Below are positions 7,101 through 26,471 of a stretch of 33,864 nt of DNA, one piece after another; the first letter of the stretch is position 1; each line of letters opens with the position of its first letter. The DNA lies in IMG/VR virus record IMGVR_UViG_3300044641_007043, positions 1 through 33,864 of that record; one strand, 5' to 3'. The stretch comes from a virus. The notes beneath the pieces were generated by a model. It ran no database searches and was not told the origin of the DNA. It worked only from the letters and a program-made list of their open reading frames with translations. The translations under genes and the position numbers were made by a program.

Positions 7101-8848
7101 GTATTTTTTTCTAGCTCTTTATTAAATAACTCCATTTGTTTAGTATTCTTACTAGCCCAGCCATCAAATATTGCTAAACCTGCACCAGCTAAGGTTAATA
7201 ACTGTATCATGGGTGCAAGTGCGCTTAAAAACATTCCAGCACTTGTAGTAATTGCACTAAACGTTCCGGCTACTCGTGTACGAAATCTATCCCACATATT
7301 CATGTCGCGAGAACTGGAAATGCGTTTATTCATTTCTTCAATAGCTTTTCCAAATCCACTTTCTTGAACATCCTCACCTACTTGTGATAGAATGTCTAGG
7401 CGCTGTGCGCGAGCGTTAGCTTGACGAGAAATACTTCTACGTACACTTTCGCCTACTGTAAATTTTTCTTTCATTCCTACTTCTTGAGCTCGACTTTCTG
7501 CAGCTGTTAGCTGTCTGCGTGCAAGTATAACCTCTCTAATTGCAGCTTTATATTCTTGTAGCGCAATAACCTGAAGTTTTGCAGCATCTGTGCCTAGCTT
7601 ACCCTGAGCAGTAATTTCTCGCTGTGCACTAGCACTCATTTTCTTTAGTTCTTGCGTAGTTTTACTCTCTAAGCCGCCAGGATCTCTAGCCTGTTTATAG
7701 ATGAGCGATTTTCGCTTATCTGCATAATCTTTGTCTATGTTTAATAGCTGTTGTCTACTAGCTTCATATTTAGATGTGACTTCTTGTAAGTTTTGTTGTA
7801 GCTCGGGAACTTTAAAGCTTTCTTTAATTTTTTCAAAAGAACTCTTACCAAAAGCTCCATCAATTTCTTGTGCACGAGCTTTTGCAGCCTCAGCAGCATC
7901 TTTAAGCTCAGTTCTCCAGCTTGTTAGGGCAGGAATAGCCATTTTTGTTAGTTTTACAGCAATAGCTGCAAGGGCAACTGTTAATATGCCTGTATTATTT
8001 GCAACTATACTTACTATAGGAGTTAGTGCAACATTTACTACTTCTAAGATTGCTTGGGTTACATTTCGTATGGAAGCTTCTAGTTGTTGATAAGGATTAG
8101 TAGGTATATTAATTTCGCTAAATTTTTTATTTGCTTCGTCTAGGACTGCTATAGCAAAGGCTTGGCGGCGCTCAAAGTCACTTAGACTGCCACTGGCCTT
8201 ACCTACTTTTCTAGCATACTCTTCTACTGCTGGACCAATCTTAGTATAAATGCCAAGTTCATCTAGTAATTCAGGCTCTAGTTTAGTAATACCACGAACT
8301 AGTCGGTTAGTAGCATCAGCCATGTCAATACCAAGAGCTTGAGCAGCAGTTTTGGCAGCTTCACCTATTTGTAAGAATTGACGCGAGCTTAAGCCAGCAG
8401 CTGTAGATTTAGCTGCTGCACTAGCTGCTTCTCTAAATGAAACTGCTCCATCTGTTGCGGCAACAAAACCTTTGGCAAGATTACCCAGTGCAATACCGCT
8501 AGCAGCACCTAGCTGATTTAAGCCTTCACGTAGTGCAGTAGTATCAGCAGCTTGCTTTAGTACATTAAACGCACTTACAGCAGCAAAAGTATTAGCAGCA
8601 AGTGTTGCGTATACACGAACTAATCCGCCAAGGCCTTGTGCCTCATTTGCAAAATCACGAGCACCAGCACCTGTTTTACCAATAACACCACTGGCTCGCC
8701 CATAGTCTCTACTTTGAGCAGCAGCACTAGCTGTTGTGCGACCAGTAGTTGCCTTATCTAATTCTTTATTAAGTAATTTAGCTTGGTCAGTTTCGCCGCG
8801 CAGGTTGGTCTTTAGCTTTAATTCAAAATCAATGGTATTACCAGGCAT
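4136..8848 (-). CDS. Tail tape measure protein
   Basis: At 1570 residues this is the longest gene in the window. The sequence is mostly helical and coiled coil, rich in Ala, Gln, Glu and Lys, with hydrophobic segments near residues 275-300 (GILTVALAAIAVKLTK) and 540-565 (MFLSALAPMIQLLTLAGAG). Those are typical of tape measure proteins, which set tail length and may enter the membrane during DNA ejection. The C-terminal 120 residues are Gly-rich (GTGLMGEAGPEAIMPL), a motif common in this family. With the usual rule of about 0.15 nm of tail per residue, the tail would be roughly 230 nm. It has its own promoter and a strong ribosome site (GGAGATACC before ATG). Confidence 0.95.
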   Translation of the reverse strand: MPGNTIDFELKLKTNLRGETDQAKLLNKELDKATTGRTTASAAAQSRDYGRASGVIGKTGAGARDFANEAQGLGGLVRVYATLAANTFAAVSAFNVLKQAADTTALREGLNQLGAASGIALGNLAKGFVAATDGAVSFREAASAAAKSTAAGLSSRQFLQIGEAAKTAAQALGIDMADATNRLVRGITKLEPELLDELGIYTKIGPAVEEYARKVGKASGSLSDFERRQAFAIAVLDEANKKFSEINIPTNPYQQLEASIRNVTQAILEVVNVALTPIVSIVANNTGILTVALAAIAVKLTKMAIPALTSWRTELKDAAEAAKARAQEIDGAFGKSSFEKIKESFKVPELQQNLQEVTSKYEASRQQLLNIDKDYADKRKSLIYKQARDPGGLESKTTQELKKMSASAQREITAQGKLGTDAAKLQVIALQEYKAAIREVILARRQLTAAESRAQEVGMKEKFTVGESVRRSISRQANARAQRLDILSQVGEDVQESGFGKAIEEMNKRISSSRDMNMWDRFRTRVAGTFSAITTSAGMFLSALAPMIQLLTLAGAGLAIFDGWASKNTKQMELFNKELEKNTETVDNAERVLKRYRDSFITTEQLQAVGTALGELTDGVTALSKSFQDTVANQGVWDGIKQGILSILGEGAQQDFAGAVASNWIKQIDMLPEGEVKSAVISKLQQVLNITDISVKGIKKAIADADVAKDVVARGEAALAPAVTRTRELGVQANSTRESITNLNKASLDLQNTFVDQSPIAKFAEALIKASLDIQKSFTTMEGSIAAFKEILSKPGAFSLIDINKLGQYQEAVKAQQEIIRLENERAAKQKSVEGLQGQLGEALRASGGRLTTPEQAATGLGTRSSRLAGRLQAQILSGQAEIEATTNKIDELTATGIKGLFNTVKETFGESVKKGFELLTTTANLALRQGELQISKAVIGGVSGPGVAQAQASLARQELAIQEQQVNIQGQLVDQLTLNTIAQQQANNLLQEAKIREKGGNLTQADEAILEQLSTSNQELAGLVQSIKTGAPISAGEIQKMGPQAGAIALQMALTRGGLEAQRAGFSSRRQIIAIDEEVNKLKEQQQIDLDIQNNLLKTLQYREKFVELSKSVLTNLSEQQIVESQILETNRVKKSQYIETLGLNSQIADLELRIKLEKDRGTAADAEILKGLATRLGYAKSILNITQNQQQKDLEILSIQQAQARIRAGLAKEAEDRQFNLFVQDKIQTVVEAELDAQSQLLEYQNSIGNLTADEYRLRKRNLDLRILEFDTVNKLRQIEGRRSEELAKIGGERTLAQAATGGVLSDADADRLYEREQRVNEQYNIEAQTLTRVNNLKKEGIYLTSSLNERQIAYGNMFKNTFDGLADALVKWAETGKWAGKDLFKSLTADLLRFELRAQTSQLYTSLIKPGLMTLLGRGPDLAMAGSYASAEGFAITNAKGGAYSFGIEKFAKGGMFTNSVINQPTLFKFARGTGLMGEAGPEAIMPLRRDGNGNLGVIGQQGKTQVVINNYSGERAETKETVDSRGNRKVEVVIGEAAALDLSTAGSSSQKSLRSTFGLAPQLIRR

Positions 8849-8884
8849 GGTATCTCCAATTACTAAAATTTTACGTATAGGACA

Positions 8885-8913
8885 ATTCTAACATAAAGGC
8901 ATTTGTTTGTCAA
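8885..8913 (-). promoter_or_regulatory. Sigma-70 promoter of the tape measure gene
   Basis: On the minus strand the sequence reads TTGACA, 17 bp, TAGAAT, with the tape measure ATG 37 bases further on. It lies directly downstream of a bidirectional terminator, so tail-tip genes can be expressed separately from the tail tube genes. Confidence 0.75.
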
Positions 8914-8930
8914 CGTAAATTTTTTAAATA

Positions 8931-8968
8931 CTAAAAAACCCGCTAAGTATATTACTGAGCGGGTTTTT
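8931..8968 (-). terminator. Bidirectional intrinsic terminator after the tail chaperone genes
   Basis: An 8-bp stem (AACCCGCT with AGCGGGTT) with a 13-nt loop is followed by six T on the minus strand and five on the plus strand. It overlaps the stop codon of the frameshifted chaperone product. Confidence 0.8.
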
Positions 8969-9721
8969 CGTGTTTTTTATTTGTTTCTTTTTGACGTATT
9001 CTGTCTATTAGTTTAACTACGACAACTAAGAATTGTTGATCTTCTTGTGGAACTTGGGATAGATTAAGTATTTCTGTTATACCTATAAGACTTTTTCCTA
9101 GGTATATTCCATTAAAAGTATCCCACTCATCGCGAAGTAAATTATATACGCTTAATGCTTGCTGCACTTCTACGGGAAAGTCTTCGTATTCTACAGGAAT
9201 ATTTTCCTCAACAGGATCTTCTCCTAGTAACTCGCACATTTCAAAATACTGATCACGAGTCATGCCTAGGGTTTGATTTTGTATATAATTTAATATGTAG
9301 GTATCAAGTAATTCTAGTTGCTCTTGGAAAAGTTTCCCAAGTCACTTACCTGCTCACTAATAAATGCATCAAAATTACTGGAGTTTTTCATTAAGTACAG
9401 TGCGTTTTCACTTGTATACTCTAAGTAATCATCCATGTCTTGGCCAGTTAAGTCAACAGGAGCTAATTGTTCTAGATAACTAAGTTTAAGTCCGGACCAG
9501 CCACGAATTGCAGCTTCTACATAAAGTTGCAAGAATAAATCTTCGTTAAATTCTTCACTTGGTTGACGATTTTTGAAAGTAGTCTTAGTAGACTTTTTAC
9601 GAATATTAAGTAGTGTCTCACGGCTTAGAAATGCTAAGTCAATTTTAAACTCAGGCATTCCGGGATATTCTACTTGAACAGATTTGCTGGGGACGAGAAG
9701 GGTTTTCAGGGAAAGAGTCAT
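8952..9721 (-). CDS. Tail assembly chaperone, long -1 frameshift product (gpGT-type)
   Basis: The long product reads 130 codons from ATG at 9721. It slips -1 at GGGAAAC (9338-9332) and continues with LFQEQLELLDTYILNYIQ into the frame that ends at 8952, for about 256 residues in total. The downstream frame also has an ATG at 9263, but no ribosome site precedes it, as expected if it is only reached by frameshifting. In lambda, gpG and gpGT bind the tape measure protein and recruit tail tube subunits before assembly; the order chaperone then tape measure is the same here. The downstream part is acidic and ends in a basic tail (KETNKKHEKPAQ). Confidence 0.85.
9314..9721 (-). CDS. Tail assembly chaperone, short product (gpG-type)
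   Basis: This 135-residue protein (MTLSLKTLLVPSKSVQVEYP) lies between the major tail protein and the tape measure gene, the conserved place of the tail chaperone. It is helical and acidic toward its end. Translation that does not slip stops six codons past the slippery heptamer (FSKSN then TAG). A terminator-like hairpin precedes the gene and may lower its level relative to the major tail protein. Assignment rests on synteny and the frameshift architecture. Confidence 0.85.
   Translation of the reverse strand: MTLSLKTLLVPSKSVQVEYPGMPEFKIDLAFLSRETLLNIRKKSTKTTFKNRQPSEEFNEDLFLQLYVEAAIRGWSGLKLSYLEQLAPVDLTGQDMDDYLEYTSENALYLMKNSSNFDAFISEQVSDLGNFSKSN
9332..9338 (-). other. Programmed -1 ribosomal frameshift site GGGAAAC
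   Basis: In the zero frame the codons are TTG GGA AAC, so the heptamer G GGA AAC has the X XXY YYZ form. The -1 frame is open from here without a stop through to 8952. This arrangement is classic for tail chaperone genes of long-tailed phages. Confidence 0.85.
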
Positions 9722-20496: not shown

Positions 20497-20526
20497 ATTA
20501 TATCATATAATTTTGGCCCGTGTCAA
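20497..20526 (-). promoter_or_regulatory. Antisense promoter cassette, copy 1
   Basis: Minus strand TTGACA, 18 bp, TATAAT, a perfect match to both sigma-70 boxes. The dyad CCAAAATTATAT / ATATAATTTTGG overlaps the -10 box, and GGCGCC marks the start region. The transcript would run into the 3' end of GcrA-like gene A with no leftward gene to serve. Confidence 0.75.
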
Positions 20527-21280: not shown

Positions 21281-21310
21281 ATTTTATCATATAAAATTGG
21301 CGGGTGTCAA
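21281..21310 (-). promoter_or_regulatory. Antisense promoter cassette, copy 2
   Basis: Minus strand TTGACA, 18 bp, TAAAAT inside the dyad GCCAATTTTAT / ATAAAATTGGC. It points back into the gene at 20910. Confidence 0.75.
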
Positions 21311-22448: not shown

Positions 22449-22478
22449 ATTTTACTATTAAAATTGGGCCGGTGTCAA
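22449..22478 (-). promoter_or_regulatory. Antisense promoter cassette, copy 3
   Basis: Minus strand TTGACA, 18 bp, TAAAAT with dyad CCAATTTTA / TAAAATTGG. Followed by a variant GTAAC element at 22486-22503 (TTGTAA, 4 bp, TTGTAAC) on the far side. Confidence 0.75.
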
Positions 22479-24024: not shown

Positions 24025-24161
24025 GCTGGCGCCAAATTTTATCATATAAAATTTGCCCGTGTCAAGGGTTTTCTACAAAATATTTTTCTATCGGGGTCGC
24101 CTAGTCGATTAAAAAATACAATCGCTTGCCCAGGGCGCAGGGCTAGATTTTCGTGTAGAAT
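24025..24161. repeat. Intergenic cassette duplicate, copy II (with 21271-21406)
   Basis: Shares ordered blocks with copy I, including GTGTCAAGGGTTTT, TTTTTCTAT and AAAAATACAAT. Its rightward -10 box is TAGAAT at 24156-24161; the -35 region is weak (TTGCCC lies 24 bp upstream). Confidence 0.6.
24036..24065 (-). promoter_or_regulatory. Antisense promoter cassette, copy 4
   Basis: Minus strand TTGACA, 18 bp, TAAAAT with dyad CAAATTTTAT / ATAAAATTTG, followed by GGCGCC and the Zur-like pair. Confidence 0.75.
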
Positions 24162-24648: not shown

Positions 24649-24678
24649 ATTTTATCATATAAAATCGGCCCGTGTCAA
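24649..24678 (-). promoter_or_regulatory. Antisense promoter cassette, copy 5
   Basis: Minus strand TTGACA, 18 bp, TAAAAT with dyad CCGATTTTAT / ATAAAATCGG. The A-to-G change in one arm is matched by T-to-C in the other. Confidence 0.75.
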
Positions 24679-24980: not shown

Positions 24981-25022
24981 TTTCTGCGCCAGTGCTAAAG
25001 TGGCAAATCGAAAAATCTAGTC

Positions 25023-25210: not shown

Positions 25211-25519
25211 ATGACTGACAAAGTAATGAACTATACCCCTGAACAAGTTCAGGAACTGGTCCAGAAGTATCAGCAAGGTGTAAGTGTTGAGCAACTGGCT
25301 GAGCAAGTAGGTAAAAGTGTGCGTAGTGTGGTTGCTAAGCTTTCACGCGAGGGTGTGTACGTAGCGAAGACCCGGACTACACAGGCGGCCCGAGTCACCA
25401 AAGCTGAGCTGGTCGAGCGCATTGCTAAAGTATGTGATCGGAATAGTGAACAGTTTGAATCGCTGGAAAAAGCAAATCAGGATGTTTTGACCCGCCTGGT
25501 CGAAGTGCTCAAAGCCTGA
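25211..25519 (+). CDS. GcrA-like HTH DNA-binding protein, paralogue C
   Basis: 102 residues: NYTPEQVQELVQKYQQGVSV, then the recognition segment GKSVRSVVAKLSREGVYVAK, one conservative change (I to V) from A and B before it diverges at its end. The C-terminal half (TKAELVERIAKVCDRNSEQFESLEKANQDVLTRLVEVLKA) keeps the family pattern but is clearly diverged. It has its own promoter and a GC-rich terminator whose 3' arm contains the -35 box of the noncoding RNA promoter. It is therefore directly next to the ribozyme RNA and is a candidate regulator of it. Confidence 0.8.
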   Translation: MTDKVMNYTPEQVQELVQKYQQGVSVEQLAEQVGKSVRSVVAKLSREGVYVAKTRTTQAARVTKAELVERIAKVCDRNSEQFESLEKANQDVLTRLVEVLKA

Positions 25520-25525
25520 TCAACC

Positions 25526-25559
25526 CGGGGGCTGCAAAAATTTACTCTTGCAGCCCCCG
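25526..25559 (+). terminator. Hairpin after paralogue C, overlapping the ncRNA -35 box
   Basis: CGGGGGCTGCAA and TTGCAGCCCCCG pair perfectly with a 10-nt loop; no T tract follows. TTGCAG in the second arm is also the -35 box of the next promoter. Confidence 0.6.
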
Positions 25560-25576
25560 TTCAAACAGTGTATAAT
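25548..25576 (+). promoter_or_regulatory. Sigma-70 promoter of the ribozyme-containing ncRNA
   Basis: TTGCAG, 17 bp, TATAAT, with TG before the -10 box. Predicted start near 25583. Confidence 0.75.
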
Positions 25577-25823
25577 ATTATTATAGTTTGGGAAGGGCGA
25601 TAACACGCACAAACAGAGTCCACTTAGCCAACTACAAGTGTCGATAACCTAAGTACGAGACTCAAGTTTGATTTCCAAACTATCCCTTCAGAAAGGCAGC
25701 AGTTAGTTACTGCTAGCAGATGGTAATATTGGTCTGTAGTTTTATGATGTCTGGCTCTGATCGGTCCCTAATGTCAATTATCTAGAGGCAGTAACCGCTA
25801 GAGAACGCACTCGGGGGAATCAA

Positions 25824-25838
25824 CCTGACCCTAAACCG
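25824..25838 (+). promoter_or_regulatory. Anti-ribozyme segment complementary to the cleavage strand
   Basis: CCTGACCCTAAACCG is the exact reverse complement of 25943-25957, the strand carrying half of stem III, the cleavage triplet GTC and the first bases of stem I. If it pairs, the hammerhead cannot form. Confidence 0.6.
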
Positions 25839-25873
25839 CAGCAATCTCAACCATCGTTGCTGCCCTTCCCCCT

Positions 25874-25960
25874 ATTCCTCTGATGAGCTCACCAAGAGCG
25901 AAACCCAAACCCGAAAACTGGTGCCCCATGCCCAGCAGACTACGGTTTAGGGTCAGGAAT
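25874..25960 (+). ncRNA. Type I hammerhead ribozyme
   Basis: All core elements are present in order. Stem I strand ATTCCT (25874-25879), CTGATGA (25880-25886), stem II GCTC-ACCAA-GAGC (25887-25899), GAAA (25900-25903). Then stem III CCCAAACC (25904-25911) pairs with GGTTT-A-GGG (25944-25952, one bulged A), followed by T-C as the cleavage-site residues (GTC, 25952-25954). Stem I closes with AGGAAT (25955-25960), six perfect pairs. Cleavage is predicted between 25954 and 25955. Stem I is the open stem, so it is type I. Stem III is capped by a loop of about 32 nt. Confidence 0.85.
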
Positions 25961-25962
25961 CG

Positions 25963-25991
25963 AGCCCACCAGTGCAAGCTGGTGGGCTTTT
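25963..25991 (+). terminator. Intrinsic terminator of the ribozyme RNA
   Basis: AGCCCACCAG, loop TGCAAG, CTGGTGGGCT, then TTT. It begins eight bases after the predicted cleavage site. Confidence 0.85.
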
Positions 25992-26013
25992 GCACTTGGT
26001 CTGGTGCGCCAAT

Positions 26014-26043
26014 ATTATACAGTGCTAAACCTTTATGTGTCAA
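26014..26043 (-). promoter_or_regulatory. Antisense promoter cassette, copy 6 (facing the ribozyme RNA)
   Basis: Minus strand TTGACA, 18 bp, TATAAT, followed by TTGGCGCACCAG as in the other copies, but without the -10 dyad. The transcript would be antisense to the terminator and hammerhead. Confidence 0.75.
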
Positions 26044-26159: not shown

Positions 26160-26471
26160 TTAGGGTCGGTTATTCCTACTTAATTCCCGTTCTATGACCT
26201 CAAGCACACCTTTATTGACCTTTTCCAGACTTTCGAGCAGTTCAAGGTTCATGTTGAGCAGTAGGGCGATTCGTTCGATGTATTCTGACTTCTTAACCGG
26301 GACCTCACCGCGTTTGTTTAGGTACTGTTTTTTCTGGTACACCTCTAGCGAGCTGAGCTTAGCAATTATGCTACGAGTTGGCACCTGGAGCTCTTGGGCA
26401 AGCTCCTCTACTGGCACACCTTCTCGGTATCTTTGCACTAGACGGTCAGTGATTTCTTTAGTATATTTCAT
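26160..26471 (-). CDS. GcrA-like HTH DNA-binding protein, paralogue D
   Basis: 103 residues from ATG at 26471, 4 bp after the upstream stop. It is the fourth family member and the only one on the minus strand: YTKEITDRLVQRYREGVPVE, then VPTRSIIAKLSSLEVYQKKQ in place of the SVRSIVAKLSREGVYQKK core, then the family C-terminal half (YIERIALLLNMNLELLESLEKVNKGVLEVIE). The recognition helix is the most diverged, so it may bind a different site. It ends at the motif TTTAGGGTC, which provides the stop codon. Function inferred: transcription regulator. Confidence 0.78.
   Translation of the reverse strand: MKYTKEITDRLVQRYREGVPVEELAQELQVPTRSIIAKLSSLEVYQKKQYLNKRGEVPVKKSEYIERIALLLNMNLELLESLEKVNKGVLEVIERELSRNNRP

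Follow-up and report, generated by a model that had tools for sequence, protein, structure and literature searches.

The DNA analysed here (the window) comprises the 33,864 nucleotides of IMGVR_UViG_3300044641_007043, a phage record of 33.9 kb in IMG/VR. The capsid encoded in the window is akin to those of T5-like phages, with ~39% identity to Vibrio phages, and the head and tail genes lie on the minus strand. A GcrA-like gene on the plus strand, gcrA-A (25211–25519; Pfam GcrA PF07750, E = 7e-7), converges with a second GcrA-like gene on the minus strand, gcrA-B (26160–26471), and the 640 bp between them hold no convincing gene. Named phages and plasmids yielded no relative in a nucleotide search, and a protein search with the GcrA-like protein likewise led to no named relative. 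Relatives were gathered by a search with the gcrA-A protein, which yielded 80 phage loci (L numbers below). The gcrA-A gene adjoins the locus in all relatives fetched with it, and in most of the phage group a convergent GcrA-like pair frames a noncoding RNA (ncRNA), as in L157 (7977–8288 and 9847–10158). A phage-borne relative of a cell-cycle regulator is here found next to a predicted self-cutting RNA.

Within the gap, a putative, consensus-like sigma-70 promoter (TTGCAG, 17 nt, TATAAT) was located on the plus strand at 25548–25576, with the -10 box at 25571–25576. It is the third copy of a 49-nt promoter-like repeat, the others being at 25011 and 25142. The predicted ncRNA then consists of a 5′ structured part (25583–25873, start approximate), a type I hammerhead ribozyme (25874–25960) and a hairpin that is probably an intrinsic terminator (25963–25988). 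The RNA from 25581 to 25995 folds better than shuffled sequences (z = -4.8), and the 5′ domain of the window is conserved in L122 and L125–L128. The first-pass annotation had described a host RNA of about 370 nt without a known family; the length agrees with the position of the -10 box, and no Rfam match was obtained. It had also placed a terminator eight bases past the cut. The hairpin does lie at that distance, but its T run counts only four and the hairpin was absent from the output of the terminator scan; longer T runs follow the hairpin in the homologues L126 and L128. A consensus promoter facing the ncRNA (TTGACA, 18 nt, TATAAT) is present on the minus strand at 26014–26043, with a similar sequence at the corresponding place in L157, L171 and L178.

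The type I hammerhead was complete as first annotated, with every element in its place. Stem I pairs ATTCCT (25874–25879) with AGGAAT (25955–25960) over 6 bp. The core sequence CUGAUGA (25880–25886) leads into the 4-bp stem II hairpin GCUC-ACCAA-GAGC (25887–25899; GCTC at 25887–25890 and GAGC at 25896–25899), followed by the core sequence GAAA, i.e., GAA plus A15.1 (25900–25903). Stem III (25904–25952) is built from CCCAAACC (25904–25911) and GGTTTAGGG (25944–25952), with A25949 bulged, and has an extended arm with a CCCA-containing end loop. TC (25953–25954) follows stem III, the GUC triplet occupying 25952–25954, and the predicted cleavage site GUC/A (25952–25955) falls between 25954 and 25955. 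The triplet fits the NUH rule with an A15.1–U16.1 pair. When the segment was folded in isolation, the RNAfold minimum was exactly the hammerhead three-way junction, with stem I open at its ends.

A descriptor specifying at least 5 bp in stem I and 4 bp each in stems II and III gave one match on the two strands of the window. Over 1000 dinucleotide-preserving shuffles of the entire window, the strict descriptor matched neither strand, and a much looser one gave one match in 300 shuffles. A covariance model (R3), trained on 34 more distant relatives with the window and its close kin left out, scored 47.7 bits on the window hammerhead (E = 4.9e-13) and recovered all tested members of the window's group. 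When nine phage records were searched whole, one match above noise was returned in eight of them; the record of L178, searched in the same way, gave no hammerhead match above noise.

In most of the 80 loci the hammerhead lies a few hundred bases past the gcrA-like gene. Both flanking gcrA-like genes are present in 55 loci; of these, 47 have a hammerhead, three a variant (L171, L180 and L184) and five none, and these five absences speak against a working hammerhead. Related phages were also checked for loss of core residues. In an alignment of 40 homologues the catalytic letters are invariant, both in CUGAUGA, apart from its N position (U or C), and in GAAA. At position 17, the cleavage base, only C and A occur and G is absent, giving a GUC or GUA triplet, and the A15.1–U16.1 pair is present in 40 of 40. 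RNAalifold returned all three hammerhead stems without structural guidance. Counted against the named structure, 83.6% of cells were paired, versus 23–46% in slid-strand controls, and double changes were found in 89 cells, versus 28.7 in shuffles, at 14 of 19 pairs and across all three stems. For stem II, 96.8% of cells were paired, with changes on both sides in four of five pairs. This conservation and covariation supports the type I assignment, the phage setting and the noncoding host RNA of the first-pass annotation, as well as its proposed cleavage after GTC at 25954/25955. Because the motif is held at a fixed place in dozens of related viruses with matching base-pair changes, we conclude that the hammerhead is almost certainly real.

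Several loci depart from the consensus. An extra U stands between the core (CUGAUGA or CUGACGA) and stem II in L171 (8822–8952), L180 (8792–8907) and L183/L184 (8731–8867), and the first (closing) pair of stem II is mismatched in a variant in L161 (11467–11579). Such variants would suit a hammerhead that is decayed or inactive, or a junction kept solely as a scaffold. Against this, divergent phages keep the catalytic letters unchanged, obey the H rule at the cleavage base and show covariation, and we consider it very improbable. A further point against a working hammerhead concerns the loops. Contact between stem I and the stem II loop speeds other hammerheads. Relatives keep UGNAA in the stem II loop plus an A beside stem I, and the window's group has the shorter ACCAA. 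As this loop is short and stem I is a plain 6-bp helix, the contact may be weak in the window.

At gathering level, Rfam gave no hammerhead match in the window or its relatives. The window core and stem II scored 17.2 bits against Hammerhead_HH9 (RF02275; gathering score 52), and L157 scored 20.6 bits against Hammerhead_3 (RF00008; gathering score 48.5). These low scores are probably due in large part to the long stem III, with its arm of 30–60 nt. In 18 relatives the arm is a conserved, covarying hairpin with a conserved, CCCA-containing loop, and its distal helix shows both-sided changes in at most 10 sequences per pair; the arm of the window is shorter and shares the CCCA motif. The gathering thresholds also miss canonical phage hammerheads in the control loci L003, L004, L219, L249 and L288. 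Since ordinary phage hammerheads are thus missed too, the silence of Rfam is no sign of novelty. Phage contigs with three to five hammerheads each were observed in L003, L004, L040, L053, L062, L067, L249 and others, spaced by a few hundred to a few thousand bases; those tested were below the Rfam gathering thresholds.

Upstream of the ribozyme, CCTGACCCTAAACCG (25824–25838, plus strand) is a perfect complement of the ribozyme 3′ arm (25943–25957). The resulting 15-bp helix disrupts stems I and III; RNAfold, in which the tertiary core is left unscored, favors it over the hammerhead fold by ~4 kcal/mol. This alternative helix also counts against a working hammerhead, and could slow cutting in the window. 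It might even constitute an RNA switch, in which CCTGACCCTAAACCG would sequester the 3′ arm and keep the RNA uncut until the arm is freed. Besides the computed energy and the 15-nt perfect complement, this proposal is favored by the 10–11 nt of upstream complement kept in L125–L128. Against it, the complement is mostly at shuffle level among those more distant relatives that were scored (part of the list), and the word belongs to a dispersed repeat with many other copies, leaving the switch a doubtful proposition.

The repeat, GACCCTAA(A/G)YYG..GCAA, occurs in both orientations and is enriched around the ncRNA. Its copies in the window are at 25827, 25947 (minus), 26065, 26160 (minus) and 19549 (minus), with many more in L125–L196. 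With a looser tail, ~10 copies were counted per 10–16 kb locus, versus ~1 expected from word-length arithmetic. It is possibly an operator or origin repeat. A conserved switch acting through the GACCCTAA word was mostly rejected, the long complement being found only in the window group among the relatives scored. The 3′ strand of stem III together with GUC is itself one copy of the repeat on the opposite strand, which raises the idea that the hammerhead is a chance resemblance built from the repeated word GGTTTAGGGTC. None of the 1000 shuffles reproduced the motif, however, and dozens of phages conserve it, including some whose arms are unlike the repeat and still pair. With the R3 match and the named-structure counts also contradicting it, a chance origin was rejected as having a negligible probability.

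The RNA that carries the hammerhead is considerably longer in other phages. In L157 it extends from ~8540 to 9650 (~1.1 kb), its first half containing the hammerhead; in most relatives the hammerhead is mid-RNA, several hundred bases 5′ of the terminator. Past the cut site, L157 and similar loci continue into a long conserved 3′ domain, which reaches ~700 nt in some relatives. In L140, L150, L163 and L190, the ribozyme core begins 5–7 bases past the 3′ end of a tRNA-Glu. The host transcript of relatives opens, after the promoter, with an element of 55–88 nt, termed M1 (L130 8553–8640; L131 1675–1736; L157 8554–8618; other loci), with the strict sequence GGGUGACAGCGG, hairpin, ACGUCUUAAUUGUGG, GAA, CCGAGCCACAGCCC. 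M1 is consistent with a three-way junction that contains the pseudoknot CGG:CCG; the pseudoknot is supported by both-sided changes at two of its three pairs (CAG:CUG in L130 and L141, CGA:UCG in L156), although these few change events do not settle it. M1 was found in 47 viral contig stretches and matched no Rfam family; a scan of 84,980 genomes of bacteria and archaea gave no instance of its pattern. A second element, M2 (e.g., L144 7323–7391), is close to the hammerhead and follows the plan of M1; its helix covaries strongly (98.8% of cells paired, 57 double-change cells versus 16.5 in shuffles). The window is devoid of M1 and M2, the M2 model (R2) finding no copy in it, and has another 5′ domain. 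L125 combines this domain with M1, which indicates that the RNA is modular. In L178 and L182, M1 is kept and the hammerhead is absent.

From this arrangement we infer a transcript that would start near 25583 from its own promoter and contain the structured domains, then the ribozyme, then the terminator hairpin. The ribozyme would make a single cut in the RNA that carries it, at the C25954/A25955 junction, soon after synthesis. The upstream product would be ~370 nt long and end in the folded ribozyme with a 2′,3′-cyclic phosphate, and the downstream product would be a short 3′ piece holding the terminator. The first-pass annotation had seen the removal of the terminator as a consequence of cleavage. 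This suits the short version of the RNA, as carried by the window and its close kin. The ribozyme of most relatives is mid-RNA or directly follows the tRNA-Glu, and terminator removal is therefore not a conserved feature. Across the phage group, the single cut would detach an upstream module, made of pseudoknotted junctions and in some phages a tRNA-Glu, from a downstream part whose length varies widely, so that the conserved job is most likely the formation of the 3′ end of the upstream RNA. Alternatively, the cut may serve mainly the downstream RNA by giving the 3′ domain a clean 5′-OH start, the window being a shortened version that has lost this domain. The long conserved 3′ domain past the cut in L157 and similar loci points this way, but in the window and its near kin the ribozyme persists with almost nothing but the terminator after it, and we regard this option as unlikely. 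Judged from sequence comparison, we are fairly confident of a working type I hammerhead that makes one self-cut at C25954/A25955 and most likely gives the upstream RNA a defined 3′ end.

Type I hammerheads are known from prophages and phages, often as multiples flanking genes, and have been proposed to cut phage transcripts (Perreault et al. 2011, PMC3088659). The window ribozyme shares their topology, core, cleavage site and phage setting, and thus belongs to a kind already reported in 2011. In contrast to those, it occurs once per genome in the records searched whole, resides in a dedicated ncRNA and has a long structured stem III arm. It is set apart by the conservation of its structured stem III arm, by having a single fixed location and by its noncoding host RNA. 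To our knowledge, no settled biological role has been assigned to bacterial and phage hammerheads; the role of this one is directly testable, owing to the fixed place across a phage group and an ncRNA with a clear before and after.

As large structured phage RNAs located near or with a tRNA, GOLLD and ROOL (PMC12286853) are the known RNAs closest to the host RNA, in style and way of working only. The host RNA differs from them in sequence and in containing a hammerhead. In L157 8300–9900, the GOLLD and ROOL Rfam models gave no match even with E values up to 5 admitted. It appears to be undescribed in Rfam 15 and in the literature searched. It is about as likely as not that the transcript belongs to a new class of large phage RNA that is modular in build, repeats pseudoknotted three-way junctions, may include a tRNA-Glu and is matured by its own hammerhead, on the scale of GOLLD and ROOL but self-processing. 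The finding brings to light a sizeable family of structured phage RNAs that Rfam lacks, one of whose domains is highly conserved and probably pseudoknotted.

Elsewhere in the window, five near-identical promoters were observed on the minus strand, at 20497–20526, 21281–21310, 22449–22478, 24036–24065 and 24649–24678. They read TTGACAC ... TAAAAT or TATAAT; an AT-rich palindrome occupies the space between the boxes, and GGCGCC lies past the -10 box. Strong hairpins follow them, and these units look like small RNA genes or operators that face ORFs of the plus strand.
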